Shown here in pieces: positions 5,496-58,947 of a stretch of 64,000 nt of DNA (the first letter of the stretch is position 1; every line of letters starts with the position of its first letter). Under the pieces are notes generated by a model. It was not told the origin of the DNA, did no database searches, and saw only the letters and a list, made by a program, of their open reading frames with translations. Location of the stretch: IMG/VR virus record IMGVR_UViG_3300021962_000058, positions 1 to 64,000 of that record; one strand, given 5' to 3'. Source of the stretch: a virus. The position numbers and the translations under genes are program-made.

Positions 5496-5653
5496 TGGAA
5501 GACACGCTTAAAATAACACAGAATGAGGATGGATCATTCACGATGGACTGGGATCCAAAAGACCCAAAGTGGGAATGGTTAAATGGGTTGACTTCCAAAG
5601 AAATCCAGGTTATTATGGAGGACGCAATCAAAGACTACATCAATGACCTTTGA
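5495..5653 (+). CDS. hypothetical protein, 52 aa
   Basis: MEDTLKITQNEDGSFTMDWD start, then DPKWEWLNGLTSKEIQ: a compact acidic protein of a type common in cyanomyovirus small-gene clusters. Shares one base with the upstream stop and 11 bp with the next gene. Confidence 0.6.
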   Translation: MEDTLKITQNEDGSFTMDWDPKDPKWEWLNGLTSKEIQVIMEDAIKDYINDL

Positions 5654-6191
5654 CTATAAAAAGTATTCTCTTGAAAACTTGAAAACTTGGATGCAAGATG
5701 CTGTTTCTACTAGCGAGGCATCCCCACAAGAAATCTTTGATGTTATTAAAGAAGTAGTTCAAGAAGAATATTATACTTTCAAACACCACACATCACGTTG
5801 TTATGAACTTCTTTCTCTTCTGAATGGAAATGGTCAATCCTATGAAGATGTTATGAAAGAAAGAGAATACTATGAACCATCTATGCCACCTTGGGGTCAC
5901 AGTGATTTGGAAGCACTTCGTTATACCGAAGAAGAACTGAATGCGATGTGCGACAAAGCAGCATCGGACGAAGAAAAGCAGCAGTGTCAAGAATATAATC
6001 TGCGTGAGGCAGAATATTATGACAACAAAAAGAAATGGGTTCTTCCTGTTGAACTTGATGGTCCAAGTGGTGAGTATTTTATAACCTTTCCAGATGATTT
6101 GCAGCAAATTTCTGGAATCCATGAAGGTGATGAAGTGCAATGGATTGACAATAAAGATGGATCATATACACTACGCAAAGTTACCAAATAA
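5643..6191 (+). CDS. protein with AbrB/SpoVT-like C-terminal domain, 182 aa
   Basis: Residues about 138-182 (ELDGPSGEYFITFPDDLQQ, then GIHEGDEVQWIDNKDGSYTL) fit the AbrB/MazE swapped-hairpin pattern: beta strand, LP/FP-x-x-L, GD-x-V/L-x-W, then a final strand. The N-terminal ~130 residues are helical and acidic. This fusion recurs in cyanomyoviruses as a conserved protein. A DNA-binding regulator or antitoxin-like role is possible but unproven. Confidence 0.65.
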   Translation: MTFDYKKYSLENLKTWMQDAVSTSEASPQEIFDVIKEVVQEEYYTFKHHTSRCYELLSLLNGNGQSYEDVMKEREYYEPSMPPWGHSDLEALRYTEEELNAMCDKAASDEEKQQCQEYNLREAEYYDNKKKWVLPVELDGPSGEYFITFPDDLQQISGIHEGDEVQWIDNKDGSYTLRKVTK

Positions 6192-15810: not shown

Positions 15811-16022
15811 AGAATAGAGTTATCTACTATCCTTCATTAATCCTAATCAGTATTGTATCGTTTGCGTTAGGATCAAATGTATACAGAGAGTCAATCATTA
15901 ATGATACTTTGAAACTGTGTAATCAAAAGCAATTAGAGTGTAAGTTCAAGTATGATATGGTGATGTATCAAGAGACAGGTAAAGTACCTTATACTCAACC
16001 TACTAAAGATAAAACCAAATAA
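15807..16022 (+). CDS. single-span membrane protein, 71 aa
   Basis: N-terminal hydrophobic segment (VIYYPSLILISIVSFALG, residues 5-22), then a polar tail with two Cys (CNQKQLEC). Start at the ATGA overlap. Its last 20 bp overlap the convergent endonuclease gene. Confidence 0.6.
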   Translation: MKNRVIYYPSLILISIVSFALGSNVYRESIINDTLKLCNQKQLECKFKYDMVMYQETGKVPYTQPTKDKTK

Positions 16023-16812
16023 AACCTTTCCAGGTATAGCGACCTTTACTTTTTAATGCTTTTGTAAGACCAGTTCCTCTACTATTACCACCAACTTTTC
16101 TAATAGCATCAGCAATACTCTCAAAGTGATATTCTTCCCAAGTTACTTTATTGATAGCTTTAACTGCTTTTTTCTTACTTTTAGTTTCAAGTAATTTCCA
16201 TCTGTAACCATAACACTTATATCCCTTACGAGCAGATAAAAGGATATTGCTATTTTTATTACGGTCACCAGCAACTTCTTCTGCTGCATCACGAGCATTA
16301 TCCCATTCTCTGATTTCACCAGTTTCTATATTCAGTCCTTGTATCTTTATACCACAGTGCTTACCGTTACCTCTATTTTCATCTGTTAAGAATCCCCATG
16401 GTTGATATTTCGCTTTTTCGGTTAAAGTAGTTTTTATATTATTAACCTCTTCATCTGTTCTTTCTCTATTAGATGCTATTTCACTTAATTTTTGTTTTGT
16501 TTCATTACTGAATACTGGACGACTTCCACCGCTTGTTGCATTATAACCTTCTGCACTTTCAAAGGTATTGTATTTTTCTATCCAGTATTGTTCTTTTTCA
16601 TCTAATAAACTTTCATCACATTCATCTATTTCTTTAATCATGAAGTTGTGATTACCATACTTACGCATAGCACGATGTAATGGTTTATCACTCATTCTTA
16701 ATGCTTCTTGTATGTGTTGTTGCCACCTTTTATTCATACCTTGGGTGGTCTGTCCAACATATTTGTGTCCGTTCTGTTTATTGACGATGAGATAGATGAT
16801 TCCTTGGGACAT
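16003..16812 (-). CDS. GIY-YIG homing endonuclease with NUMOD-type modules, 269 aa
   Basis: A canonical core: GIIYLIV (residues 4-10), KYVGQT (17-22), catalytic-type Arg 29 in KRW, and EKEQYWIEKYNT with the metal-binding Glu. The C-terminal part has repeated DNA-binding modules (GEIREWDNARDAAEEVAG; YHFESIADAIRKVGG) like NUMOD1/IENR1. It is the only minus-strand gene, convergent with the preceding operon and next to the repeat-rich 17-kb segment, so probably a recent insertion. Confidence 0.85.
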   Translation of the reverse strand: MSQGIIYLIVNKQNGHKYVGQTTQGMNKRWQQHIQEALRMSDKPLHRAMRKYGNHNFMIKEIDECDESLLDEKEQYWIEKYNTFESAEGYNATSGGSRPVFSNETKQKLSEIASNRERTDEEVNNIKTTLTEKAKYQPWGFLTDENRGNGKHCGIKIQGLNIETGEIREWDNARDAAEEVAGDRNKNSNILLSARKGYKCYGYRWKLLETKSKKKAVKAINKVTWEEYHFESIADAIRKVGGNSRGTGLTKALKSKGRYTWKGFIWFYL

Positions 16813-16903
16813 TTATATTTTAGATAACACTTTTAATATTTTATATATTCTTTATGTTATTTTATATTATTATTTTGGTTAATTTGTGATTAAATATTTT
16901 GTA

Positions 16904-16955
16904 ATTCTCAATAAGGTTTTGTAATTGATAATAAATAACAGGTTTTATTGAGAAT
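16904..16955. repeat. Inverted repeat of ATTCTCAATAA
   Basis: ATTCTCAATAA (16904-16914) and its exact complement (16945-16955), 30 bp apart, in a very A+T-rich gap (16813-17060) that otherwise shows no gene. The same 11-mer forms another inverted repeat at 17617-17646. Confidence 0.7.
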
Positions 16956-17060
16956 AATAAGAAAATGCTGAGTCTTGTTGCAGCCTTTGCCAGCGTAGCA
17001 TAAGACACGCAGTTTGTCAAGTCCACCGCCCGCGAAAATGCCACGAGACCCACACAAAAA

Positions 17061-17345
17061 CTCGACGAGATCCATACTAGACTTATGAGATCTCGACGAG
17101 ACCTTATGTTACGAGATGCACATAATTCTCGACGAGAGTACATATATATTGGTATGATTCTCGACGAGACACACATCTAGACTAGATTGTATCTTGTCGA
17201 GTTTTATGGTATAATACGAAAGCGTTCACACAATCTCGACGAGCTTATGTACGACGATTACGATCTCGACTATACGTATAGTAACGATTATGTAGATCTC
17301 GACGAGGACACATACCACGAGTATGGTATAACGGATCTCGACGAG
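17061..17345. repeat. Iteron-like array of CTCGACGAG
   Basis: Seven exact copies (17061, 17092, 17128, 17160, 17235, 17298, 17337) and two variants (17193 CTTGTCGAG, 17265 CTCGACTAT). Start-to-start spacing is 31, 36, 32, 33, 42, 30, 33, 39 bp. Each site is an odd palindrome, CTCG-A-CGAG, usually preceded by AT or GAT. The array runs from non-coding DNA through a -10 box into the 17247 gene, where copies read Leu-Asp-Glu. It resembles replication iterons or a multi-site operator; no function is shown. Confidence 0.75.
17210..17215 (+). promoter_or_regulatory. -10 box of a cassette-type promoter
   Basis: TATAAT followed by ACGAAAGCGTTCACACAA, like the other cassette leaders. No TGGCACA lies upstream; CTCGACGAG copies occupy that region instead. 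Confidence 0.55.
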
Positions 17346-17402
17346 GATTATGCACGAGATACACAAGATTATAACGATCTTGCGTATCGTCATTATGCAT
17401 GA
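17247..17402 (+). CDS. highly acidic Tyr/Asp protein, 51 aa
   Basis: MYDDYDLDYTYSNDYVDLDE and further DLDED units: about half the residues are Asp, Tyr or Glu. The CTCGACGAG repeats encode its LDE steps. Possible DNA mimic or simply a repeat-derived ORF. Start chosen because it follows the -10 box and leader. Confidence 0.5.
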   Translation: MYDDYDLDYTYSNDYVDLDEDTYHEYGITDLDEDYARDTQDYNDLAYRHYA

Positions 17403-17432: not shown

Positions 17433-17585
17433 ATGTTAGCACAGAAGCGCCTAGTCACAGTCACACTCGACATCATGTGTTATGATGACCTGGATCTAGA
17501 CAATATTAACTGGCGAGATGTATTAGATCTCGAACCCAATGAGGATGTCCATTGTAAGATCCAGGAGCACGATATCGATTGGTAG
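17433..17585 (+). CDS. acidic small protein, 50 aa
   Basis: MLAQKRLVTVTLDI then CYDDLDLDNINWRD and DLEPNEDVHC. The acidic part resembles the 17247 protein (YDDxDLD), so they may be related. An internal ATG (17475) is an alternative start. Confidence 0.5.
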   Translation: MLAQKRLVTVTLDIMCYDDLDLDNINWRDVLDLEPNEDVHCKIQEHDIDW

Positions 17586-17616: not shown

Positions 17617-17646
17617 ATTCTCAATAAGCAACCCCTTATTGAGAAT
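17617..17646. repeat. Hairpin ATTCTCAATAAG
   Basis: Perfect 12-bp arms (17617-17628 and 17635-17646) with a 6-base loop. It carries the same 11-mer as the inverted repeat at 16904-16955, so the two bracket the CTCGACGAG segment. Confidence 0.7.
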
Positions 17647-17830: not shown

Positions 17831-17854
17831 GGTTTCGTTCAACACAAAACCCCG

Positions 17855-18058
17855 ATGATTTTCATCACTTACCCCGATCACGGTTGTGTATACACTCTGT
17901 CGCAGGAAGATGGGGATGAGTTGTATTATGCTCCAATCTACCAGAACGGTAGTATTAATCTAGAAGAATTTGCACCCGTTGATTTAGATTCAGCAGACAT
18001 GGATCAGATGGAATTGTTTGACATTCGTAACCGCCTGGTGGAGATGTGCCAGATCTAG
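17855..18058 (+). CDS. acidic hypothetical protein, 67 aa
   Basis: MIFITYPDHGCVYTLSQEDG, then a strongly acidic C-terminal half. The start follows the -10 box and leader; an upstream ATG (17795) would place the promoter inside the gene. Confidence 0.6.
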   Translation: MIFITYPDHGCVYTLSQEDGDELYYAPIYQNGSINLEEFAPVDLDSADMDQMELFDIRNRLVEMCQI

Positions 18059-18935: not shown

Positions 18936-19283
18936 ATGCGTAAGATCGAACAGCAAATGAACGCCGCCATTCGTGACTCCCGCGATTGGAAGTCTGGCAA
19001 CACTGAAGTTACTTTTGACTCTGAAACCAATGAGTCGAAAGTGTTCCTGCATGGCAACCACATTGCTACCATCGGTGATGACTTCGTGCAAATCTTTGAT
19101 GGTGGTTGGCAGTCTAACACCACCAAATCCCGCCTGAACGCTATTCTTCAAGATCACGGAATCAAGGGCGAATGTGTATTCCAGCGCAACTGGAATTGGT
19201 TCGTTCATAAGTTCATCGGGCAGGCAGGAACTTCTCCTGTGTTCAACGAACTCGAGTTCACCAACGGATTCGTGTTCGCCTGA
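18936..19283 (+). CDS. conserved phage protein, 115 aa
   Basis: MRKIEQQMNAAIRDSRDWKS, then VFLHGNHIATIGDD, DGGWQSNTTKSRLNAIL and HGIKGECVFQRNWNWFV. I recognise this as a hypothetical family found in many phages of cyanobacteria and proteobacteria. No known activity. Confidence 0.75.
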   Translation: MRKIEQQMNAAIRDSRDWKSGNTEVTFDSETNESKVFLHGNHIATIGDDFVQIFDGGWQSNTTKSRLNAILQDHGIKGECVFQRNWNWFVHKFIGQAGTSPVFNELEFTNGFVFA

Positions 19284-19353: not shown

Positions 19354-19920
19354 ATGGAAACCTTCCTCGAGACTTCCTTCCAGAACGTTCGTTCTTCCAA
19401 GCGTACTGATGAGTTTCATAAAGTTCTGCTGGATGAGATTCTGAACGCAAATCCTTCGTGGGCAGAGTATGATTGGAAGTTTGAGTATCAACTTCCCGTA
19501 GATGGTTTTGGTGGTACATTTGACATTGACATTGCTGGGTTTAGTAATGGTGAACTTAAGGTTGCTATTCTTGGCAAAGCACTCAACAGCAACATTAACA
19601 AAAACATCAAAAACTACGCTAACACTAGTGTAGGTGAAGCAGCACGTTTGATGTTCGCTCCTGACATTGAGATGGAAAAAGTGCTGTTCGTGAGTGTTCT
19701 TCCCCGTGTGGCACCACGTTTCAACAAAGCGGGTGAAGTTCAGGGTTTCGATGATGTCGTGAGTGCCAAAGAGCGTACCAAGATTAACCACGTTCTGCAA
19801 GCACAATACGATGGTATTGTTGAGGCAATCGACCTGTACTTTGACATTGAAGGTGTAAAGACTCTGCAAGAGTTCAACACCATTAGCATCAACAATCTGG
19901 ACACTCTGACTCTGGTGTGA
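19354..19920 (+). CDS. conserved hypothetical, possibly nuclease-fold, 188 aa
   Basis: METFLETSFQNVRSSKRTDE, FGGTFDIDIAGFSNGELKV, LGKALNSNINKN. An Asp followed by E-L-K in strand-like context hints at a PD-(D/E)XK fold, but the motif is loose. Monocistronic under a cassette promoter. Long minus-strand ORFs across it are shadows. Confidence 0.6.
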   Translation: METFLETSFQNVRSSKRTDEFHKVLLDEILNANPSWAEYDWKFEYQLPVDGFGGTFDIDIAGFSNGELKVAILGKALNSNINKNIKNYANTSVGEAARLMFAPDIEMEKVLFVSVLPRVAPRFNKAGEVQGFDDVVSAKERTKINHVLQAQYDGIVEAIDLYFDIEGVKTLQEFNTISINNLDTLTLV

Positions 19921-21301: not shown

Positions 21302-22201
21302 ATGCAAAACAAGCACCAAGAGCACCCCGAAGATACCATCCTCACGGGTGATTTGACCGTGCTCGACTGGTTCGTGACACCTGGCACCCTGAGCGTTAAG
21401 ATTGACGGAGCACCCGCAATCGTGTGGGGGATTGATCCTGCGACTGGTACGTTCTTCGTGGGTACAAAAGCAGTATTCAACAAAAAGAAGATTCGTATTG
21501 CACACTCTCACGATGAGATTGACCAACACTATGAAGGCAACGTTGCAGACATTCTGCACACTTGCTTTGACATTCTGCCCCGTACTGAGACAATCTATCA
21601 GGCAGAGTTCATCGGGTTTGGTGGATCTGATGAGTACACTTCCAACCTGATTACGTATCAGTTCCCTGAGATTGTCACTCAAACTATTATCATCGCTCCG
21701 CATACTTGCTATTATGCTGAGAATGATCTGCGTGAGGCAGTAGCGTATCCTGATCGTGCAACTTGGAATGATACTGAAACGGTCAAGTTTGTGAAACCTG
21801 ATGCCTACATTCTGCACGGTCAAGAATCGTTCGCTGATGTAGAAGAAGTGTGCAACTTTGCCCGCCAGATGGCAACCACCTGCCAGTTCGTTTCTAACAC
21901 CGAAGCGGCAAAGATTAAAGTTGCCATTAACGCTTGCATCCGTGAGCAACGTGAGATCGAAGATGATGCATTTGGATGTGATCCTAACCTGATTCGTTTG
22001 TGGAAACTGGTTAAATCTATCAAAGAGGATTGCCTATTCCTGTGCCGCAACAATGGTCCCGCAGCATACATCAAACAGGACCGAATTGATGCGGAAGGTT
22101 ACACAATGACCAATGAGTTTGGTATGTTCAAACTGGTGAAGCGTGAAGTGTTCTCCTACCACAACTTCACCAGCGGACGCTTTCAGTGTACCAGTGCCTG
22201 A
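21302..22201 (+). CDS. KxDG nucleotidyltransferase/ligase-like protein, 299 aa
   Basis: SVKIDGAPAIVWG (KIDG at 33-36) looks like nucleotidyltransferase motif I of ATP-dependent ligases and capping enzymes. FFVGTKAVFNKKK (51-63) fits motif III-type placement and YQAEFIGFGG (99-108) resembles motif IIIa/IV (E-F-x-G). I connect it with a T4-like-phage family usually listed as a DUF (I believe DUF6267). It could ligate or nick-seal nucleic acid, or adenylylate a target. The C-terminal ~100 residues are helical. No OB fold is obvious. Confidence 0.6.
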   Translation: MQNKHQEHPEDTILTGDLTVLDWFVTPGTLSVKIDGAPAIVWGIDPATGTFFVGTKAVFNKKKIRIAHSHDEIDQHYEGNVADILHTCFDILPRTETIYQAEFIGFGGSDEYTSNLITYQFPEIVTQTIIIAPHTCYYAENDLREAVAYPDRATWNDTETVKFVKPDAYILHGQESFADVEEVCNFARQMATTCQFVSNTEAAKIKVAINACIREQREIEDDAFGCDPNLIRLWKLVKSIKEDCLFLCRNNGPAAYIKQDRIDAEGYTMTNEFGMFKLVKREVFSYHNFTSGRFQCTSA

Positions 22202-22246
22202 ACCGTCCACCTGAACCCGCAGGGGGGCACTGCTGCCCCCTATACT
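22187..22246 (+). promoter_or_regulatory. Cassette promoter 13: degenerate palindrome plus -10
   Basis: TGTACCA-N10-CGTCCAC (22187-22210), AGGGGGGCA/GCCCCCT hairpin, TATACT at 22241 (37 bp). First leader of the GATCTCAGTTCAC class; ATG at 22271. Confidence 0.55.
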
Positions 22247-22270
22247 GATCTCAGTTCACAAGCGAACCCA

Positions 22271-22468
22271 ATGCCTAACACCGCTACCCTGATTGCCATC
22301 GGTGAAATGATCGTTAATGCATCTGAGACGTTGCCTGCAACCACCAATGCAAACATCCGCATTATGCAGGGTGAGAAGTGTGGCGCTGAGATTCTACGTC
22401 TGATCGTTCGTGATAACTTAGGTGGCGCTGCCAATGTTATCACCAATGCCCTTTGGGTCACTCGCTGA
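22271..22468 (+). CDS. hypothetical protein, 65 aa
   Basis: Ala/Thr/Ile-rich, helical, near-neutral protein, unlike the acidic neighbours. Single gene between two cassettes. Confidence 0.6.
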   Translation: MPNTATLIAIGEMIVNASETLPATTNANIRIMQGEKCGAEILRLIVRDNLGGAANVITNALWVTR

Positions 22469-22513
22469 ACTGGCACAGGGGGGACTGAGATCCCCCCACC
22501 AACCCCCTATACT
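22454..22513 (+). promoter_or_regulatory. Cassette promoter 14: half-site plus -10
   Basis: TGGGTCA-N10-TGGCACA (22454-22477), GGGGGG/CCCCCC hairpin, TATACT at 22508 (37 bp). ATG at 22536. Confidence 0.6.
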
Positions 22514-22535
22514 GACTTCAGTTCAAACGAAACCA

Positions 22536-22697
22536 ATGCAACGCCTTGACGTGATTTGCCCCTCCGCTCCTTGGGAGAACACTACCACCGATGAGGATCG
22601 TGCCTGGGATCTGTGCCTGTCACTCTCTGAGGAATACGGTTACGCTCAGGTTCGCCAGAACGGTATGATCATCGGTGACTACACTGACGGTCGCTGA
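22536..22697 (+). CDS. hypothetical protein, 53 aa
   Basis: MQRLDVICPSAPWENTTTDE, then a RAWDLCLSLSEEYGYAQV helix-strand. Ends before a strong terminator. Unknown. Confidence 0.6.
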   Translation: MQRLDVICPSAPWENTTTDEDRAWDLCLSLSEEYGYAQVRQNGMIIGDYTDGR

Positions 22698-22704
22698 ATG
22701 ATAC

Positions 22705-22735
22705 AAAAGGGGGAGCACATACGCTCCCTTTTTTT
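22705..22735 (+). terminator. Rho-independent terminator
   Basis: GGGAGC-acatac-GCTCCC followed by seven T residues: strong intrinsic terminator. The rest of the gap to 22755 is T-rich and featureless. Confidence 0.85.
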
Positions 22736-22755
22736 ATACTTTTTCTTTTTTTTTA

Positions 22756-22885
22756 TTTCAAGGCTGCCCCCGTGACGACCTTTTTCGTCATCAGGGCTAC
22801 CCCGCCCCTCCTTCGCTTGTGACCTTAGTATAAGGCCGCGGCAACCCCATACAACCCCCAGTGTGCCACTTTCTGAACTGGCACC
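22756..22885. repeat. Duplicated non-coding element, copy B
   Basis: Second copy of the 17664-17794 element. In copy B the stem is GACGA...TCGTC; in copy A it is GGCGA...TCGTC, so pairing is kept through a G-U change. It ends with TGTGCCA-N10-TGGCACC and again precedes a cassette promoter. Confidence 0.6.
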
Positions 22886-22922
22886 CTACCCCCACCATCC
22901 TGCCCACTGCTGCCTCTATACT
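22862..22922 (+). promoter_or_regulatory. Cassette promoter 15: palindrome plus -10
   Basis: TGTGCCA-N10-TGGCACC (22862-22885), TATACT at 22917 (38 bp). Leader GATCTCATCAGCAACGGACC; GTG start at 22945. Confidence 0.65.
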
Positions 22923-22944
22923 GATCTCATCAGCAACGGACCCC

Positions 22945-23124
22945 GTGCAGACCCTCAAAGCAACCGCCATCGCCCTGCTAGTCATCACACTGGCAACCGC
23001 TGGTTACTTTGCTCTGCTTCGCAATGGCAATGCCCGCATCGAAGCGAAGTGCCAGGCATCAGGTGGGCAGGTGCTTGTGACACCTGGTCAAGTGTCCAAA
23101 TGCCTCCTGCCCGCTGCCCGCTGA
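22945..23124 (+). CDS. single-span membrane protein, 59 aa
   Basis: GTG start fixed by the leader spacing (28 bp from the -10). Transmembrane helix at about 6-27, then KCQASGGQVLVTPGQVSKCL: two Cys likely to form a disulphide outside the membrane. The type is common in cyanophages. Confidence 0.6.
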   Translation: MQTLKATAIALLVITLATAGYFALLRNGNARIEAKCQASGGQVLVTPGQVSKCLLPAAR

Positions 23125-23135
23125 CCCCTTATACT
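23076..23135 (+). promoter_or_regulatory. Cassette promoter 16: palindrome plus -10
   Basis: TGTGACA-N10-TGTCCAA (23076-23099) inside the 22945 gene; TATACT at 23130 (37 bp). Leader GATCTCAGTTCACACAACACC; ATG at 23158. Confidence 0.6.
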
Positions 23136-23157
23136 GATCTCAGTTCACACAACACCG

Positions 23158-23322
23158 ATGAGCACCGCAACCCGCCTCACCGCAAACCAGGCAAAGAGCG
23201 CCATCTACGATCTGGCGGATGACTTCTCATGGGAAACCGTTGCTAAGGAGATGGTCGCCCGCATGAGTGGTGATGAGGCACGGGACTTCCTCGAGGACTT
23301 CCAGCGCCTCTATGCCGACTGA
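23158..23322 (+). CDS. hypothetical helical protein, 54 aa
   Basis: MSTATRLTANQAKSAIYDLA then WETVAKEMVARMSGDEARDF: a helical protein rich in Ala, Arg and Asp. G+C-rich codons. Unknown. Confidence 0.6.
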   Translation: MSTATRLTANQAKSAIYDLADDFSWETVAKEMVARMSGDEARDFLEDFQRLYAD

Positions 23323-23371
23323 GGCACTGGCACAAGGGGGGCACAGACCCCCCACCCCGACCCGCTACAAT
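23311..23371 (+). promoter_or_regulatory. Cassette promoter 17: half-site plus -10
   Basis: TATGCCG-N10-TGGCACA (23311-23334), GGGGGG/CCCCCC hairpin, TACAAT at 23366 (38 bp). Leader ACTCTCACACGCAACC; ATG at 23394. Confidence 0.6.
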
Positions 23372-23393
23372 ACTCTCACACGCAACCGATCCG

Positions 23394-23567
23394 ATGCGAA
23401 TCGAAGTCCGTTACCAGACCCCCTACAACGCTTGTGAGTGGCGGTCGCAGTGGTTCCCCACGCTGGCAGAGGCAGAGCGTATGGTAGAGTTCTACCGCTC
23501 CTGCGGATCGCCCTCTCACATCGCCCCCAGCAGCATGGCACAGTTCGCTCACCTGATTCCCGACTGA
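23394..23567 (+). CDS. hypothetical protein, 57 aa
   Basis: MRIEVRYQTPYNACEWRSQW, then a TLAEAERMVEFYRSCG helix. Strand-helix mini-domain; one-base overlap with the next gene. Confidence 0.6.
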   Translation: MRIEVRYQTPYNACEWRSQWFPTLAEAERMVEFYRSCGSPSHIAPSSMAQFAHLIPD

Positions 23568-23653
23568 TGATCACCGCAGCATTCTTCCTGATCGGTTACA
23601 CTATGGGAGCAGGGCACATCCTGCTCCTGCAACGTATCCTCCGCCACCGATGA
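23567..23653 (+). CDS. membrane peptide, 28 aa
   Basis: ITAAFFLIGYTMGAGHILLL is a single hydrophobic span with a basic end (QRILRHR). ATGA/TGATG coupling on both sides supports it despite its length. Confidence 0.5.
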   Translation: MITAAFFLIGYTMGAGHILLLQRILRHR

Positions 23654-23817
23654 TCAACACCCTGACCCGCTCACGATCCCCTGAGTTTCACCGCGCCACA
23701 ATGCTCCGCCTGACAATCGCCGCGCTGCTACTCTGGGGGTTCTGGGGTCCACTGTACCCCGTCCGTAGTGTGACAGCAGACGTACTGTCCACTACCGCCG
23801 ACCTCCTGCGTCGCTGA
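23650..23817 (+). CDS. single-span membrane protein, 55 aa
   Basis: Arg-rich N-terminus, transmembrane helix LTIAALLLWGFWGPLYP (about 21-37), short polar C-terminus containing the left half-site of the next palindrome. Confidence 0.55.
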   Translation: MINTLTRSRSPEFHRATMLRLTIAALLLWGFWGPLYPVRSVTADVLSTTADLLRR

Positions 23818-23828
23818 CCCCTTATACT
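23769..23828 (+). promoter_or_regulatory. Cassette promoter 18: palindrome plus -10
   Basis: TGTGACA-N10-TGTCCAC (23769-23792) in the end of the 23650 gene; TATACT at 23823 (37 bp). ATG at 23852. Confidence 0.6.
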
Positions 23829-23851
23829 GATCTCAGTTCACAAGCGAACCG

Positions 23852-24040
23852 ATGACCCGCACCAACGTCCTGCCCAACGACCTCTGCTCCATCACCCTGA
23901 CTGAGGCACAGTGGAGCACCATCCGCACCGCCGTGCTCTGCCTGGCAGTCGATTGCCGCGTTGCTGGTAAGGGTGCTGACGCAGACTACTACCTGAACGC
24001 CTACAACATCCTGCGGGATGCGATGGGGATGGACGCCTGA
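23852..24040 (+). CDS. hypothetical helical protein, 62 aa
   Basis: LTEAQWSTIRTAVLCLAVDC then a DADYYLNAYNILRDAMG helix: same two-helix plan as the small paralogous family. Single-gene cassette. Confidence 0.6.
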   Translation: MTRTNVLPNDLCSITLTEAQWSTIRTAVLCLAVDCRVAGKGADADYYLNAYNILRDAMGMDA

Positions 24041-24089
24041 GGCACTGGCACACGGGGGGTTCCACCCCCCTACCCTGACCCCTTATACT
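24029..24089 (+). promoter_or_regulatory. Cassette promoter 19: half-site plus -10
   Basis: ATGGACG-N10-TGGCACA (24029-24052), GGGGGG-ttcca-CCCCCC hairpin, TATACT at 24084 (38 bp). ATG at 24115. Confidence 0.6.
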
Positions 24090-24114
24090 GATCTCAGTTC
24101 ACACCCGAACCCCA

Positions 24115-24543
24115 ATGACCGTCACTCTCACCGCTTCCTACCGCGACATGCTTGCCGCTGACACTGTAAGCAAGATCGACGAACTCCAGGAGGAGAACTA
24201 CTCCCTGGAGGACATGCTGGAGTTCATTGATACCTACAATGAGAATGATTTTATCGCATACTATGAGGAGTATGTGCGTTGTGGTGAAGCAATCGGTTAC
24301 GATGCTGTTGATGCTCTGATCGATGAAATGGGGTGCGTTTCTGACATTGAAGATTGTGATGAGCGTTTCCAAGGTTGGTATGAAAGTGAGGCAGATTTCG
24401 CTGAGCAGTTCTACTCTGATCTCTACGATGTCCCCTGTGCTCTGGTGATAGATTGGCAGGCAACCTACGATTCCTCCCTGCGTTACGATTTCACCTGCTG
24501 CGAGAAGTCCTACCGTCAGGTGGCAGTGTTTCGGGACTGCTGA
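24115..24543 (+). CDS. ardA: ArdA-like antirestriction protein, 142 aa
   Basis: Very acidic. The second half (CDERFQGWYESEADFAEQFY, then VPCALVIDWQATYDSSLRYD) follows the ArdA pattern: F-x-G-x-Y-x-S-x-x-DFAE, a short linker, then the IDW/Y-x-A-x-x-x-S-L-x-x-D block, ending VFRDC. ArdA mimics bent B-form DNA and blocks type I restriction enzymes. At 142 residues it is shorter than typical plasmid ArdA (about 165). An early, self-promoted position suits an antidefence role. Confidence 0.7.
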   Translation: MTVTLTASYRDMLAADTVSKIDELQEENYSLEDMLEFIDTYNENDFIAYYEEYVRCGEAIGYDAVDALIDEMGCVSDIEDCDERFQGWYESEADFAEQFYSDLYDVPCALVIDWQATYDSSLRYDFTCCEKSYRQVAVFRDC

Positions 24544-24603
24544 GGGACAGTTGAGGGGGTGGCACACTGCTGCCCCCACTGCCCCCACTCCTGCCCTTAT
24601 ACT
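24543..24603 (+). promoter_or_regulatory. Cassette promoter 20: palindrome plus -10
   Basis: AGGGACA-N10-TGGCACA (24543-24566), TATACT at 24598 (38 bp). Leader GATCTCAGTTCACACCCGAACC; ATG at 24630. Confidence 0.6.
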
Positions 24604-24629
24604 GATCTCAGTTCACACCCGAACCACCA

Positions 24630-24890
24630 ATGGCAACCGCAACCTACCAGACCAACCTCACCGACCGCACCTACAACGGTTGGACTAACTACGAAACCTG
24701 GAACGTTGTGCTCTGGATTGAGAATGATGAGAGCATCTACAACTTCATTCAAGAGAATGACATTTGCTGCTATGAAGAACTGCTGGAAGCATTCTATGAT
24801 CACGGCAGCATTCAGACCCCTGATGGTGTGATGTGGAACGACCCTAAGATCAACCGCGCTGAGATCAACGGCGACGTGTTCGATTCCTAA
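24630..24890 (+). CDS. NGWTNYETWNV-family protein, 86 aa
   Basis: YNGWTNYETWNVVLWIENDE is a signature I recognise from a small protein family present in many phages and some prokaryotes (DUF7249, as I recall). The remainder is acidic and helical. Function unknown. Confidence 0.7.
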   Translation: MATATYQTNLTDRTYNGWTNYETWNVVLWIENDESIYNFIQENDICCYEELLEAFYDHGSIQTPDGVMWNDPKINRAEINGDVFDS

Positions 24891-24936
24891 ACTGGCACAA
24901 GGGGGGCACCAACCCCCCATCCTGACCCCTTATACT
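24876..24936 (+). promoter_or_regulatory. Cassette promoter 21: half-site plus -10
   Basis: GTGTTCG-N10-TGGCACA (24876-24899), GGGGGG-caccaa-CCCCCC hairpin, TATACT at 24931 (38 bp). ATG at 24959. Confidence 0.6.
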
Positions 24937-24958
24937 GATCTCAGTTCAAACGAAACCG

Positions 24959-25129
24959 ATGACCGCTGACCTTGCTGCCTCCCTGCTCAACCGTGCCGCT
25001 AACGGTGCCGAACTGCTGAGCATCCTGGATACGATCGCCAACGACATTGCAGACGCCAACATCGCTGACTGCGCCGCCCATTATGCTCGCATCAGTGCCC
25101 AACCTACCCTGAGCGAAGTCCAGTTCTGA
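24959..25129 (+). CDS. hypothetical Ala-rich helical protein, 56 aa
   Basis: MTADLAASLLNRAANGAELL then DTIANDIADANIADCAA: Ala/Asn/Asp-rich helices. Unknown; single-gene cassette. Confidence 0.6.
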   Translation: MTADLAASLLNRAANGAELLSILDTIANDIADANIADCAAHYARISAQPTLSEVQF

Positions 25130-25176
25130 TAGTGGCACAACGGAGGGGGATGACCCTTCCCTTTTGCCTCTATACT
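25116..25176 (+). promoter_or_regulatory. Cassette promoter 22: half-site plus -10
   Basis: AAGTCCA-N10-TGGCACA (25116-25139), TATACT at 25171 (38 bp). ATG at 25199. Confidence 0.6.
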
Positions 25177-25198
25177 GATCTCAGTTCAAACGACCACT

Positions 25199-25405
25199 AT
25201 GTGCCCAATCGACGCCTTTGAGATCCACCTGCAACTGTGTGAGGATCTCTACGATCTGGCAAACGCCATCGCCGCTGAGATGTATGGTTGCGATCTGCAC
25301 CGCCTGGACCCCTCTGAGATCGAATGGTACAATGAGCGGGTGACCGCCGACAATCTGGAGGAGATGGCAAACGACCTTGCCGCTGCCGCTTGGCAGTCCT
25401 ACTGA
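25199..25405 (+). CDS. acidic helical protein, 68 aa
   Basis: HLQLCEDLYDLANAIAAEMY, then ADNLEEMANDLAAAAW: amphipathic acidic helices. Unknown. Confidence 0.6.
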   Translation: MCPIDAFEIHLQLCEDLYDLANAIAAEMYGCDLHRLDPSEIEWYNERVTADNLEEMANDLAAAAWQSY

Positions 25406-25410
25406 TCTGC

Positions 25411-25436
25411 TACAATACTCTCAGTTCACAAGCAAC
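25411..25436 (+). promoter_or_regulatory. Cassette promoter without palindrome
   Basis: TACAAT then ACTCTCAGTTCACAAGCAACC; GTG start at 25443. No TGGCACA-like sequence 36-38 bp upstream. Confidence 0.55.
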
Positions 25437-25442
25437 CGACCC

Positions 25443-25613
25443 GTGTTCATCACCAACGACACTGCTGCCAACGACCCCGCCTGCCAGGCAGCGATGAAAG
25501 CATACGCCGCCCAACTCAAGCGGGAGGAGGAGCGCCGCCAGCAGATCCTGGCAGGCACCTACATCCCCTGCCCTGTCCAATCTACGGTCTGGCACATCAG
25601 CGACCGCGACTGA
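25443..25613 (+). CDS. hypothetical protein, 56 aa
   Basis: GTG start set by the leader. MFITNDTAANDPACQAAMKA, then a charged helix KREEERRQQILAG. Its end contains TGGCACA of the next cassette. Confidence 0.55.
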   Translation: MFITNDTAANDPACQAAMKAYAAQLKREEERRQQILAGTYIPCPVQSTVWHISDRD

Positions 25614-25633
25614 CCCCACCGACCGACTAGGAT
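25590..25633 (+). promoter_or_regulatory. Cassette promoter 23: right half-site plus -10
   Basis: TGGCACA at 25590 inside the gene end, TAGGAT at 25628 (38 bp, aligned with TACAAT of sister leaders). ATG at 25656. Confidence 0.5.
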
Positions 25634-25655
25634 ACTCTCAGTTCAAACGAAACCA

Positions 25656-25841
25656 ATGACCACCACTCAGAACCTCCGCTCCCTGATCGCTCACACCCTG
25701 ACTGAGATCGACCGTGAGTTTCACGGTTGGACCTTTACCGCTGATGACTTCGCTGGTGAGTCGATCCACGATCTGCGGGAGTTCTGCTACCGCCACCACT
25801 CCCCCATCGTTCGGGCACTGCCCACGACGGTGATGATCTGA
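25656..25841 (+). CDS. hypothetical protein, 61 aa
   Basis: MTTTQNLRSLIAHTLTEIDR, then FTADDFAGESIHDLREF. Helical, near neutral. Unknown. Confidence 0.6.
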   Translation: MTTTQNLRSLIAHTLTEIDREFHGWTFTADDFAGESIHDLREFCYRHHSPIVRALPTTVMI

Positions 25842-25862
25842 GGGGTCCGCCCCTTTATCTGC

Positions 25863-25888
25863 TACAATACTCTCAGTTCACAAGCAAC
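25863..25888 (+). promoter_or_regulatory. Cassette promoter without palindrome
   Basis: TACAAT then ACTCTCAGTTCACAAGCAACC, preceded by a small GGGG/CCCC hairpin. ATG at 25895. Confidence 0.55.
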
Positions 25889-25894
25889 CGACCG

Positions 25895-26095
25895 ATGACC
25901 CGCCCCAACCTGGAAACCGAACTGATCAACGCCCTGAATGATCTCACCCCAGCAGAGCGCCAGGCATTGGCCGCGGCAACCCCTGCCGACTGGGCTGAGG
26001 CAGGTGCTGAAGTTCTGAATGACCCCACCTTCTGGGGTGAGATCGCTGCCGCTTTTGCTGAGGGTTTCACACGCGGTTTTGAGAATCGCCGCTGA
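25895..26095 (+). CDS. hypothetical Ala-rich protein, 66 aa
   Basis: LNDLTPAERQALAAATPADW then FWGEIAAAFAEGFTRGF. Helical with a basic end. Unknown. Confidence 0.6.
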   Translation: MTRPNLETELINALNDLTPAERQALAAATPADWAEAGAEVLNDPTFWGEIAAAFAEGFTRGFENRR

Positions 26096-26113
26096 TCTGA
26101 CCCGCTGATCTGC

Positions 26114-26140
26114 TACAATACTCTCAGTTCAAACGACCCC
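26114..26140 (+). promoter_or_regulatory. Cassette promoter without palindrome
   Basis: TACAAT then ACTCTCAGTTCAAACGACC. ATG at 26147. Confidence 0.55.
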
Positions 26141-26146
26141 AGACCG

Positions 26147-26347
26147 ATGACCGAAGCATACGCGATCTTCACCACTGGCACCGACTACTACGACCGCCCC
26201 GAACTGTTCGGACTCTATGTTTCCGCTGAGAAGGCAGAGGCAGAGGCAGCGGTGCTCCGCGAGCGCCTGGAGGATCCCGACTGTGCAGAATTCGAAGGGC
26301 AGCGCCTCTACGATCAGGTGACCGTGACCTACGTTCCGATCCGCTGA
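26147..26347 (+). CDS. hypothetical protein, 66 aa
   Basis: MTEAYAIFTTGTDYYDRPEL, then SAEKAEAEAAVLRERLED and a C-terminal strand VTVTYVPIR: strand-helix-strand. The same plan is common in small phage proteins of unknown role. Confidence 0.6.
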   Translation: MTEAYAIFTTGTDYYDRPELFGLYVSAEKAEAEAAVLRERLEDPDCAEFEGQRLYDQVTVTYVPIR

Positions 26348-26385
26348 GATCCGATGGGGGGTTGACCGATCGCCCCCCTACCCTC

Positions 26386-26411
26386 TACAATTCTCTCAGT
26401 TCACAACCCGA
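26386..26411 (+). promoter_or_regulatory. Cassette promoter without palindrome
   Basis: TACAAT then TCTCTCAGTTCACAACCCGAAC, preceded by a GGGGGG/CCCCCC hairpin (26355-26379). ATG at 26416. Confidence 0.55.
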
Positions 26412-26415
26412 ACCG

Positions 26416-26604
26416 ATGAACGACACCTTCGCTCAGATCCTCTGGAACGCCACCAACCCTGAGACTGGTACGATCCGATTCTCCACCGCCGCTCAGGCAG
26501 CAAAGGAACATGGTCTGTGGGATGACTTCCGCAGCGACTATGCCACCCTCTCTCAGTTCGGCGGTGTTGATACTGGTGAGTTCCTGGAGTGGTTGGGGTA
26601 TTGA
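26416..26604 (+). CDS. hypothetical protein, 62 aa
   Basis: MNDTFAQILWNATNPETGTI, then STAAQAAKEHGLWDDFRSDY. Start fixed by the leader rather than the longer ORF. Unknown. Confidence 0.6.
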   Translation: MNDTFAQILWNATNPETGTIRFSTAAQAAKEHGLWDDFRSDYATLSQFGGVDTGEFLEWLGY

Positions 26605-26623
26605 CCCCTGCCCCCTGATGCCT

Positions 26624-26648
26624 TACAATTCTCTCAGTTCACACCCCA
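26624..26648 (+). promoter_or_regulatory. Cassette promoter without palindrome
   Basis: TACAAT then TCTCTCAGTTCACACCCCACC. ATG at 26655. Last member of the cassette array. Confidence 0.55.
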
Positions 26649-26654
26649 CCGATC

Positions 26655-26840
26655 ATGGCAATCTACTCCGCCTGCTCCAACCTTGAAACCCGCGAAACCA
26701 TGTGGGTTGCACGCAAGACTGATGACGCCCCCCAGTACACGTTCGCTGGTCAGATCAACCCCGTAGAGGGTTGGTGGTTGGCAGGTGTCTCCGCCGATCG
26801 CTACGCTTCGGACGTGGTGGCACCCCAGTGGGAGGGGTGA
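26655..26840 (+). CDS. hypothetical protein, 61 aa
   Basis: Trp-rich beta-type protein (MWVARKTDDAPQYTFAG; VEGWWLAGVS). Last gene of the G+C-rich array. Unknown. Confidence 0.6.
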   Translation: MAIYSACSNLETRETMWVARKTDDAPQYTFAGQINPVEGWWLAGVSADRYASDVVAPQWEG

Positions 26841-26928
26841 CCCCCCATCCTAGCACACGGGCAGTGGGTGCGTGGGATGCAGGTCCCCCGCCGCCCGCCC
26901 CGTGCGGTCGCGGCGCGTGATGGGGGGT
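26840..26928. terminator. Long G+C-rich inverted repeat closing the cassette region
   Basis: ACCCCCCATC (26840-26849) pairs perfectly with GATGGGGGGT (26919-26928). The ~69 bases between are G+C-rich and themselves fold-prone. TTGTTATAAAAA follows. Probably terminates cassette transcription. The remaining gap to 27079 is A+T-rich and shows no gene. Confidence 0.55.
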
Positions 26929-27079
26929 TGTTATAAAAACCCCTAACTACCCTAACCTACAAAGTGTTACGGACGCGAGAGAAATATCAGACTCATTAAA
27001 CATCGAAAATCAAAAAATTTTTCGCCAATAAAAAGTTCTCATAAGGTTGATATATAAAAAATAAAAAAATATCAAAAGA

Positions 27080-27250
27080 ATGAGAAAAAAATCCGGAGAA
27101 GAAAAACGCCCCATAGAAGTCGATCCGATCAGTGGGGAGTATTCGATTAAACTACCAGAATGGATGGTCAATGAGCTTTCGTGGTACGAGGATACTGAGA
27201 TTACGTTTACCTTAGAGGGTAGTGAACTTATACTTTCAGAATCCGAATGA
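27080..27250 (+). CDS. AbrB/MazE-like small protein, 56 aa
   Basis: VDPISGEYSIKLPEWMVNEL then YEDTEITFTLEGSELILSE: the strand, LP-x-x-hydrophobic, ED/GD-T-x-hydrophobic, final strand order of AbrB-like swapped hairpins. Second such protein in the window (other at 5643). ATGA overlap with the next gene. DNA-binding regulator plausible. Confidence 0.65.
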   Translation: MRKKSGEEKRPIEVDPISGEYSIKLPEWMVNELSWYEDTEITFTLEGSELILSESE

Positions 27251-46295: not shown

Positions 46296-49200
46296 ATGCC
46301 ACAAAAGACTAACCTAAACATAAATCCTTATTATGATGATTTCAATAAGGATGACAATTATTATAGAGTTCTGTTCAAACCTGGTAGACCAGTTCAGGCG
46401 AGAGAATTAACAGGCCTCCAGTCAATTTTACAAAATCAAATAGAATCCTTTGGAAGTCATATATTCAAAGAAGGATCTATGGTAATTCCTGGTGGAGTTA
46501 CTTGTGATAATGCATTTACTACTGTTAAAGTAAATAAAGATCATCTAGGTATTGATGTTACTGTATACTTAGATGCTATCACAAATTATAATAATGGAAG
46601 AGGAACAAAAGTAAAAGGCGTAAAATCTGGGGTAGTTGGAACGTTAAAGGGATATTTACTACCACCAGAAGAAGGAGTAGAAGATATTACACTTTTTGTA
46701 AAATATGTGGATGGTGGAAATGACGGACAAACATCACAATTTTCAGATGGTGAAATTTTAACCCTTGAAGAAAATATTACCTATGGTAATACTTCTTTAA
46801 ATATCGGTGATAGTGTACTTACCCTAGTTTCAATTGATGCTACTAAAACTGGATATGCAGTTGGTGTATCAAAGGGTGTCTATTTTATTAGAGGAGTTTT
46901 TGTCGATGTTCCAAATACTCAAATTGTTTTAGACCCATATAATAATGAACCATCATATCGTGTAGGTTTTGATGTTTTAGAAGAAATTGTTACTTCGAAT
47001 GATGATCCAGATTTAAATGATAATGCCAGAGGATTTACAAACTTTGCAGCTCCTGGTGCAGATAGATTAAAAATCAGTGTTAAACTTGCTAAAAAACAAT
47101 TAACAGATTTTGATGACGTAAACTTTATTGAACTCGTCAAAGTTGATCAAGGTAAAATTAAAAAATTACAAAATAAATCAGAATATAGCATAATTAAAGA
47201 ATACTTTGCAAAAAGGACATTTGAAGAATCAGGAAACTATGCATTAAAACCATTTACAGTATCTGTTGCAAATTCGTTAAACAACGAAACTGGTAATGGC
47301 GGACTTTACAGAGAAGGTCAGAGAACAGAACAAGGTAATCTTCCAAATGATAACTTAATGTCTGTTACTGTTTCATCTGGAACAGCATATGTTAAAGGGT
47401 TTGATATTGATCTTGTTGGAACAACAGTTGTTGATGTCGAAAAACCAAGATCTGTTAAAACGGTTGATGGTGCATTAGTACCATTTGCTATGGGAAGTTT
47501 GTTAAAAGTAAATAATGTCTATGGTGTTCCATATATCAACATTGGAGCATCGTCGAGTGGAGCACAGACAACTCAGGCTAACATTATAGAACTCTACAAC
47601 AGAAGAAGGGATGGTGCTGGTACAGGGGGTACAGTTGCAAATGCTTCTGGACTAGGAACTAAAATTGGTGAGGCAAGAGTATATTGGTATGGAGTTGCTG
47701 ATGCCCCATACACTGCCAATAACACCGAATGGGACTTATATCTATTCGATGTTCAAACATATACAACTCTCTATCTTGGAAGATCATATACTACAACTGA
47801 AGTTCCACTAACATCATTTGTTAGAGGTCTTTCTAGTGGAGCAACTGGTTATTTGGCAGCAAAACCAAATGGCGCTGCATTTAGTTTATCGCAAACTTCT
47901 GGAACATTTTTAGTTGGTGAGCAAATCATTATTAATGAAAATCCAGAATTAAAAGTTGGCGTCAGTGCTATAAACGTTTATACAACAGAGGATATTAAAT
48001 CTGTATATCAAGATGCATCAACTATAAGTGGATTATCAGTTGATTTTCTAGCAGATACAGTTCTTTATGAGAGAACACCTCCAAATTTTGCAATCACTGA
48101 CAAATTGAGAATTACCAGTAGTACTGGCGTATCTCGTGCTCCTGGTAGATTTTTCTCAGGAGCAACTGGGATTAAAACAGAATCTATTATAAAGTATCAG
48201 GAAGGAACAAATACTGATCCAACATTTAATAGAATAGCATCAATAAACACAACAGGAACTGAGATAACTCTTGCTGCAACTGGCGCTGCAGTTGCTGGTG
48301 TTTGTGATAATGGAATAGCGGCAGCAGATACTGAATCTGTATTTTCTTTAATGGAACCAAAGATTGTTAATTTGGTTTCTTCTGGACTTTATACTAATCT
48401 GCCAAGACCTAATATAGCATCTGTTGATCTATCCTCATCGGAACTTACTATTTCTAGACAAGTTACTGGAAAATCAACAGATGCCAATGGACAATTAACA
48501 CTAACTACTTCCGATGTTCTGGATGTTAGTGCTGGAATCAGTAGTGTATTTTTTGAATCTTTCGATGCTGAAAGGTATTCCGTACACTATTCGGATGGAA
48601 CAACTGATCAATTGACGGCTAGTAAATTTACACGTAGCATTGATGGTTCGTCAATTACATTTACAAAATTAACAGCAAATCAAACTAATAATGTAACTGT
48701 TAATGTTACTCTTAAAAAGAGAGCAGTTACAAATAAGTCGAAAGATTTTATAAGAAGTAGGCAAGTATCTATTACAAGAACAAGTGGTATTTCCACTCAA
48801 TCTGGACCAACTTCAAGTGGACTTTCTACCAGTAAATATTATGGATTAAGAGTAGAAGATGCTGAGATATGTCTGAATGTTCCTGATGTTGTAAATATCA
48901 GGGCTGTTTATGAGTCTACAAACACTTCAGCACCTGTTTTAGATAAGTTGGTTTTTGCGAGTGGATTAAATCTAGATAATAATGTTATTGTTGGTGAAAA
49001 AATTGTAGGTGAGGATAGTAGAGCAGTTGCTCAGGTTGTAACTAAAACATCTACAACAGTAGAATTTGTATATTTAAACCAAAATAATTTTAAAGTTGGA
49101 GAACTGGTTAAATTTAACGAGTCTTCATTAAATATAGCAATTCAATCAATAACAGAAGGTAGCTATATTGATAAGACTTCAAATTATGTTCTAGATAAAG

Positions 49201-57520: not shown

Positions 57521-58947
57521 TGGCACTTAATCCATTTTTCCTACAAGGAACATCATCTGAACAGAGATTGATTCAGGACTTAATAAATGAGCATCTTAGG
57601 ATGTATGGTGTTGAAGTCATTTATATACCAAGAAAATTTGTAAATAGAAAAACTATCATAGAAGAAGTTCAATCTTCAAGATTTGATGATAATTTTGCGA
57701 TTGAAGCATATGTAAATACTTACGATGGTTATTCTGGTGCGGGAGATATTTTAACAAAATTTGGAATGAGTCTTAGAGATGAATTATTGATTACAATATC
57801 AAAAGAAAGATTTGAAGATTTTATCGCTCCATTTATGGGAGCATTAGATGATGGAAGTGGTGAAGGTGAAATTATATTATCTACTCGCCCAAGAGAGGGG
57901 GACTTAATTTACTTTCCACTTGGAGAAAGAATTTTTGAAGTTAAGTTTGTTGAACATGAAAATCCTTTTTATCAACTAGGTAAAAATTATGTTTATGAAT
58001 TGAAGTGTGAACTATTTGAATATGAGGATGAAATTATTGATACTTCTATTGAAGAAGTAGATACACAAGTTGAAAATGAAGGATATATTACTACACTAAA
58101 ACTGATTGGTGTTGGTAGAACTGCAACAGCATCTGCCACAATTGGTAGTGGATATGTTAGGGAAATTTTCCTTAATAATGATGGATATGGATATACTTCC
58201 ACACCTGTAGTTGCTATAAGTAGTTCTCCCACTGGACAACCAGGAGATAATGCAACAGCGGTTGCACTAATGTCAGTTAGAAATGGAATTAGATCTGTTG
58301 ATAGAATTTATTTGACTAATGCAGGTGCTGGATATAGCACTCCACCAACTATAAGAATTACTGGTGGTGGTGGAGCAGGTGCTGCTGCTACTTGTTCAAT
58401 CGAAACTTCATATAATGGTGTAGTTAGATTTATTGTTAATGATAATGGTGTTGGATATGGTACTGCCCCCGTCGTTACAGTTTCAGCACCAGGACAAACT
58501 GGAATAGGTAGAACTGCTGTTGGTATTGCCTCTATTGGACTTGTCGGATCTGATAGCGTAGTTCGTTTAGTATACGTTGCAAATCCAGGAATAGGATACA
58601 CTTCAAATCCAACTGTGGTTATTGCAAATCCAGAAACACTTACGGGTATTGGAACTTTCTTATTCAACGAAGTCGTTAGAGGATCTAGATCTCAAATTAG
58701 AGCAAGAGTTAAATCGTGGGATAAAGATACCAACATTCTCAAGGTTGCTAATTTAGGTATTGGAGCAACACAACCATTATTTTTACCAGGCGAAAATATT
58801 ATTGGAACAGAGTCGGGAGCGATATTTACTGTTCAATATTTTGATCAAATGGATACATATGATAAATATAGTCAAAATGATGAGATTGAAGAAGAAGCAG
58901 ATCTCATTTTAGACTTTACAGAATCAAATCCATTTGGTACTTATTAA
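57520..58947 (+). CDS. 14: Neck protein gp14 with inserted repeat domain, 475 aa
   Basis: The first ~195 residues (SSEQRLIQDLINEHLRMYG; VEVIYIPRKFVN; GDLIYFPLGERIFEVKFVEH) and the last ~90 are gp14. Residues about 200-385 consist of four G-x-GY-(T/S/G)-x-x-P-x-V units absent from T4 gp14 (256 residues). The insert probably decorates the neck surface. Couples by one base to both neighbours. Confidence 0.9.
   Translation: MALNPFFLQGTSSEQRLIQDLINEHLRMYGVEVIYIPRKFVNRKTIIEEVQSSRFDDNFAIEAYVNTYDGYSGAGDILTKFGMSLRDELLITISKERFEDFIAPFMGALDDGSGEGEIILSTRPREGDLIYFPLGERIFEVKFVEHENPFYQLGKNYVYELKCELFEYEDEIIDTSIEEVDTQVENEGYITTLKLIGVGRTATASATIGSGYVREIFLNNDGYGYTSTPVVAISSSPTGQPGDNATAVALMSVRNGIRSVDRIYLTNAGAGYSTPPTIRITGGGGAGAAATCSIETSYNGVVRFIVNDNGVGYGTAPVVTVSAPGQTGIGRTAVGIASIGLVGSDSVVRLVYVANPGIGYTSNPTVVIANPETLTGIGTFLFNEVVRGSRSQIRARVKSWDKDTNILKVANLGIGATQPLFLPGENIIGTESGAIFTVQYFDQMDTYDKYSQNDEIEEEADLILDFTESNPFGTY

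Follow-up and report, generated by a model that had tools for sequence, protein, structure and literature searches.

A conserved array of short palindromic sites around an early promoter of T4-like cyanophages, probably serving as operators

The viral DNA analysed here (64,000 nucleotides, hereafter the window) contains an array of short palindromic sites, CTCGACGAG, which lies in and around a sigma70 promoter and is widely conserved among related phages. The array appears to be new to the open-access literature, in which no account of the motif was found; of the 144 papers that contain the nine letters, the 20 sampled look like primers or unrelated sequence. We consider it likely that the sites are the operators through which a DNA-binding regulator, probably a repressor, controls an early promoter and a small regulon. 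Few viruses in water are as common as T4-like cyanophages and, to our knowledge, neither a phage-specific early operator nor a mapped replication origin has been described for them. The conserved array in the cultured model phage P-SSM2 offers a direct handle on the timing of cyanophage gene expression, and an adjoining element made of DnaA boxes and a leftward promoter makes the replication start site in these phages directly testable.

Results

Sites in the window

Seven exact copies of CTCGACGAG start at positions 17061, 17092, 17128, 17160, 17235, 17298, and 17337, whereas dinucleotide shuffles of the window gave a mean of 0.10 and a maximum of 1 exact copy in 64 kb. Two variants, namely CTTGTCGAG at 17193-17201 (minus-strand reading CTCGACAAG) and CTCGACTAT at 17265-17273, bring the array to the nine sites that the earlier note had described. 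This cluster (17061-17345) is the only one in the 91-kb viral record.

The sites surround a rightward promoter, PR, whose -35 box TTGTAT (17187-17192, plus strand) is separated by a 17-bp spacer from the -10 box TATAAT (17210-17215, plus strand), the latter read from the sequence and in a promoter survey of relatives. The -10 box and the tiny gene behind it (17247-17402, 51 amino acids) had been correctly described earlier. Four exact copies precede the -35 box, all on the plus strand: the outermost one (17061-17069), one of class O5 (17092-17100), one of class O4 (17128-17136), and one of class O3 (17160-17168). The variant CTTGTCGAG forms class O2 on the minus strand, in the promoter spacer and abutting the -35 box, and an exact copy of class O1 (17235-17243, plus strand) falls between the -10 box and the ATG. 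Three further plus-strand sites are located within the tiny gene, namely the variant CTCGACTAT and two exact copies (17298-17306 and 17337-17345) that are translated as Leu-Asp-Glu. Start-to-start steps among the nine sites are 31, 36, 32, 33, 42, 30, 33, and 39 bp (mean 34.5). The proposed spacing of three helical turns holds for upstream steps, which cluster at 31-33 bp, but not for the promoter-proximal ones, which are mostly 26-36 and 35-43 bp and follow the geometry of the promoter.

Conservation of the array in relatives

Relatives were represented by 57 distinct (dereplicated) IMG/VR loci with a homologue of the tiny gene, which are phylogenetically related, so that the counts given for them are not independent. 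The 220-bp region upstream of the gene holds 3.96 sites per locus on average, compared with 0.04 in shuffled sequences. Class O1, 8-18 bp 5' of the ATG, was found in 57/57 loci, class O2 (40-68 bp 5' of the ATG) in 51/57, and class O3 (70-100 bp 5' of the ATG and upstream of the -35 box) in 55/57, while O4 and O5 occurred in 27/57 and 21/57, respectively. Most site positions carry 1.5-2 bits of information, compared with mostly less than 1 bit between sites; the sites have the consensus AATCTCGACGAGA, to the left of which A/T flanks are conserved. The array also exists in S-SRM01, S-T4, P-SSM2, S-SKS1, and two marine single-cell phages (AG-345-L05 and AG-345-F15), so the search of other cyanophages suggested earlier did reveal conservation, both in IMG/VR relatives and in named phages.

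Two kinds of variation are informative about how the sites may be read. First, O2 is reversed in most relatives (CTCGTCGAG, CTAGTCGAG) with its arms kept, while O1 is not; such free flipping of the odd centre fits recognition of double-stranded DNA. Second, the motif may change at several sites of a locus together. S-T4 has CTCGACTAG at all three upstream sites, and in another lineage (L024) each of the five upstream sites is centred on G or C; two further lineages (L008 and L030) are mixed, the change being incomplete. The coordinated changes in S-T4 and L024 suggest that one protein reads all sites. No Rfam family was detected at the gathering score in a scan of the locus, and no match was found in the plasmid collection searched.

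Sites at this and other promoters

A site falls within the core of a sigma70 promoter, between its two boxes, in 51 of the 57 loci, and in 38 of these 51 it starts 6-7 bp past the start of the -35 box. P-SSM2 and AG-345-F15 have a consensus promoter (TTGACA-N17-TATAAT) with CTCGACTAG in the spacer. Furthermore, the same sites occur at other promoters in relatives. The promoter of a tRNA-Leu(UAA) gene at locus L027 reads CTCGACGAG-tg-TTGACA-ttatCTCGACGATacac-TATAAT-aTCGTCGAG, that is, site, -35 box, site, -10 box, and site, and another tRNA-Leu promoter, at locus L010 (TTTACA-aatCTCGTCGAGatgtgg-TATAAT), has a site in its spacer. In our view, this repetition of the O3/O2/O1 layout at an unrelated tRNA-Leu gene argues more strongly than any other finding for a role of the sites as promoter operators, most simply those of a repressor. 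Site clusters in relatives also precede a 62-aa family and an approximately 55-aa family of small genes, and S-SRM01 has three clusters (85.57-85.73, 88.14-88.25, and 90.91-91.01 kb). The apparent regulon is visible only in relatives, since the genome studied here has a single cluster. At locus L346, from AG-345-F15, five AACACGAA repeats (17835-17934) are interleaved with CTCGACTAG sites and two promoters.

The earlier suggestion that the sites take the place of the TGGCACA element of nearby cassettes is not supported. TGGCACA adjoins the array cassette on its downstream side in the window, and a TGTGCCA...TGGCACA inverted repeat lies between two CTCGACGAG sites of another cluster in relatives. 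Many TGGCACA-marked small genes are found in a GC-rich block (22000-27000, approximately 56%), whose GC skew is negative and whose composition sets it apart from the remainder of the window; a tRNA-Cys gene (26842-26927) is located in the same block.

The tiny gene and its operon

The 51-aa acidic protein encoded under PR (17247-17402, plus strand; MYDDYDLD...LAYRHYA) has at least 372 relatives in IMG/VR and no match in Pfam or PHROGs. Variable sites number 16, 14, and 40 at the first, second, and third codon positions among 20 distinct copies of 50 codons, which indicates that the protein is under selection. It is also encoded in S-SRM01, a phage of freshwater Synechococcus, and in S-T4, with weaker similarity in S-SKS1 and AG-345-L05. 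P-SSM2 (PSSM2_098) and AG-345-F15 have a similarly composed gene in the same place, as recognised by eye. No gene is annotated at this position in S-T4, and in S-SRM01 the annotated gene begins at the end of the tiny gene. The open-access literature yielded no mention of PSSM2_098 or PSSM2_102. A second small acidic gene (17433-17585, plus strand, 50 amino acids), which matches phrog_12516, probably shares an operon with the first, and a sequence related to it, matched by eye, follows PR in S-SM2, which has no array.

Within the coding region, the Leu-Asp-Glu triplets of the sites in the 57 loci are encoded by CTC in 102/104, GAC in 100/104, and GAG in 92/104 cases, while the same amino acids elsewhere in the tiny gene use these codons in 62/157, 209/643, and 37/76 cases, respectively. 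This strong bias indicates that the DNA itself is under selection. The earlier argument against coding constraint as the explanation of the sites stands; even the copies within the gene are biased to CTC-GAC-GAG.

A candidate regulator

A phylogenetic profile of S-SRM01, in which reading frames were judged by eye to be real, was compared between array-bearing and array-free cyanophages, and a 58-aa protein, QPX48150, tracked the array. It was the only small non-structural protein to do so besides the array genes. Its homologue in the window is a 56-aa protein (27080-27250, plus strand), a weak candidate for the regulator according to the profile, a family scan, and a fold match. The family scan matched MazE_antitoxin in 14 of 28 members (best 6.2e-6), and the closest structures in a fold search were a MazE-DNA complex and AbrB (TM 0.57-0.63, E about 0.1; mean pLDDT of the model 73), while a PDB sequence search gave nothing significant. 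Downstream of the array, the gene is 9.8 kb away in the window and 2.4-10 kb away in 19 array loci; seven loci with this gene have at least 9.5 kb of upstream DNA, and all of them show a site cluster there. A further 21 array loci, covered for at least 5.5 kb on the downstream side, showed no such gene within the DNA analysed, which reached at most about 7 kb, as against 9.8 kb in the window. Strict co-occurrence failed, in that S-CAM7, ACG-2014f, and Sf-CH8 have the AbrB/MazE-like protein and no array, and nothing convincing emerged when these three phages were searched de novo for other arrays near the gene. The acidity of the protein is a further point against it. On these grounds, the AbrB/MazE-fold protein can be named as a tentative array binder only, and we think it rather doubtful. 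A second AbrB/MazE-like protein (5643-6191, plus strand) matches phrog_661 in its C-terminal part (E 1.1e-6).

The leftward promoter and the question of an origin

To the left of the array lies a divergent promoter, PL (TTGACA-N17-(TGC)-TACGCT, 16992-17020, minus strand), which is kept in nearly all lineages examined with a -10 box of TACGCT or similar. Its extended -10 TG is present in 52 of 56 distinct PL sequences, and TGTCAA is absent in 10 of the loci examined for PL. Downstream of PL, and divergent from the array, is a GIY-YIG homing endonuclease gene (16003-16812, minus strand; Pfam GIY-YIG, E 1.6e-11), and in many relatives PL is followed by a comparable protein start (MSQGIIYLI...). 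PL is also present where no endonuclease gene follows, and its predicted transcript would enter AT-rich repeats. The stretch to the left of PL (16813-16990, assigned to neither strand) is 80% AT and contains ATTCTCAATAA/TTATTGAGAAT repeats; in array loci it averages 72% AT, often has variable CATTTATAAG repeats, and in some relatives holds DnaA boxes. The ATTCTCAATAA/TTATTGAGAAT repeats are located at 16899-16960 and again at 17617-17646, where the second pair forms a terminator-like hairpin. A TTCTCAA core is approximately 6-fold enriched to the left of arrays.

The cyanobacterial DnaA box is TTTTCCACA (PMC4674748). Six cyanophages each have a single cluster of at least two exact TT(T/A)TCCACA boxes, next to PL or to a sequence that resembles it: S-PM2 (19231-19264), Syn9 (52565-52597; -35 box of the PL-like promoter TTGTGT, matched by eye), Syn33 (46718-46749), S-SM2 (58064-58093), DSL-LC02 (24407-24449; PL-like -35 box TTGCCA), and S-SKS1 (151414-151464). 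Shuffles gave 0-0.05 such clusters per genome in the four of the six genomes tested. The clusters sit upstream of gp25, approximately 3-9 kb away. As the sole DnaA-box cluster is beside PL in six cyanophage genera, this neighbourhood may be a replication origin, in which the array may take part. No account that combines cyanophage, origin, and DnaA box was found in the open-access literature.

The sites could accordingly be replication iterons, as the earlier note had also considered. An initiator would bind the CTCGACGAG repeats beside an AT-rich unwinding region, and the transcript from PL would serve as primer or activator, as at T4 oriF/oriG or oriE. The array does adjoin PL and the AT-rich stretch, DnaA boxes are 13-fold enriched to its left (0.36 versus 0.027 per kb), and T4 oriE likewise combines repeats at even intervals with an early promoter and tiny genes (PMC3016281). 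Against this, the role of the T4 iterons is itself unproven, S-PM2, Syn9, S-SM2, DSL-LC02, and Syn33 have PL and DnaA boxes and no array was found in them (by exact-motif search in all but Syn33), and most array loci have no DnaA box: S-SKS1 and 5 of 62 array loci carry such boxes, and none lies near the array in the window. Moreover, the positions of the sites track the promoter, and the sites recur at other promoters, with three clusters in S-SRM01. In the suggested check, the GC skew of five genomes did not turn at the array, but this is a weak test, since the skew climbs or declines steadily over the length of these genomes. The neighbouring PL region carries the sole DnaA cluster in several related genomes, yet we consider the iteron reading unlikely. 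A broader scheme is, in our estimate, slightly less probable still. According to this, AT-rich DNA, DnaA boxes, PL, the CTCGACGAG array, and PR would together form the origin of T4-like cyanophages; some genera would start replication through host DnaA, and in array-bearing lineages a phage protein bound to CTCGACGAG would partly have assumed control of both initiation and early genes. In S-PM2, five AAATCTCA repeats on both strands (19470-19566; spacings 17, 17, 38, and 17 bp) lie on the far side of PL from the DnaA boxes, in the place of the array.

Other explanations

The sites might instead be operators for a host transcription factor that phages exploit. Phages that infect Prochlorococcus share the motif with those of Synechococcus from both marine and fresh waters, and NtcA and Pho sites have been reported in cyanophages (PMC3037559). 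Nevertheless, a search for paired sites in a one-genome-per-species collection of prokaryotes gave no cyanobacterial-titled record, a result in which single host operators would be missed because it covered exact paired sites only. Further, S-PM2, recorded on WH 7803 like S-T4 and S-SKS1, has no array. We therefore hold a host factor to be quite improbable, and the idea of a host regulon was dropped; the matches obtained resemble Leu-Asp-Glu-coding DNA in GC-rich bacteria. A locus filed as a Flavobacteriales MAG (L407) carries the paired site and also encodes the cyanophage AbrB/MazE-like protein, and for this reason is probably a misbinned cyanophage contig.

The repeats could also act in mRNA, by binding a translational regulator or as processing sites, given that O1 directly precedes the start codon and that the coding mRNA contains two to three sites. 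This is very improbable, since O2, whose orientation flips, and everything upstream of it are outside the PR transcript, and the Rfam scan named no family. Neutral repeat expansion or coding repeats alone are hardly credible: Leu-Asp-Glu repeats in acidic proteins can by themselves yield CTCGACGAG, as the apparent matches in GC-rich bacteria suggest, but sites are kept at fixed promoter positions in non-coding DNA while the intervening DNA has diverged.

Discussion

The earlier proposal of a cooperative operator array is well supported by the sites in and around sigma70 promoters, the layout at the tRNA promoter, the sites before other small genes, and the codon-level selection. Under the operator reading, a putative DNA-binding protein, probably a dimer that reads AATCTCG-A-CGAGA, would fill several sites together, presumably in a cooperative manner: one directly behind the -35 box, one in the stretch from the -10 box to the start codon, and others farther upstream or within the first gene. 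With such a protein on the sites at and around PR, RNA polymerase would be blocked there and the early operon, which encodes the two small acidic proteins, would be off. In related phages, the tRNA-Leu promoter and other small genes would be controlled at the same time. It should be noted that six or more sites are more than simple repression needs, which is a point against operators.

Several known systems resemble the array in part. The control regions of lambda OR/OL type, which are multi-operator regions of temperate phages, likewise consist of divergent sigma70 promoters whose elements are overlapped by several short palindromic operators. By comparison, the array belongs to T4-like cyanophages, for which, where they bear the array, we know of no lysogeny; its sites are 9-13 bp long, number up to eight or nine, and reach into the gene, and no repressor gene was identified beside it. 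The operators of AbrB/MazE-type proteins (MazE, VapB, and AbrB) come to mind because a phage protein of this fold is encoded 2.4-10 kb downstream in 19 loci. However, the candidate here is acidic and also present without the array, and we know of no AbrB/MazE operator made of CTCGACGAG sites at 30-bp spacing. Iteron plasmid origins share spaced repeats beside AT-rich DNA, and DnaA boxes in relatives, but the sites of the array follow promoters and recur at other loci, and no Rep protein gene was identified beside them. Finally, T4 oriE with repEA and repEB, both annotated as antisense to gene 5, shares evenly spaced repeats, an early promoter, tiny early genes, and baseplate genes nearby. It differs in gene order, and the sites described here are palindromes that stand at promoters and are found elsewhere in the genomes of relatives as well.
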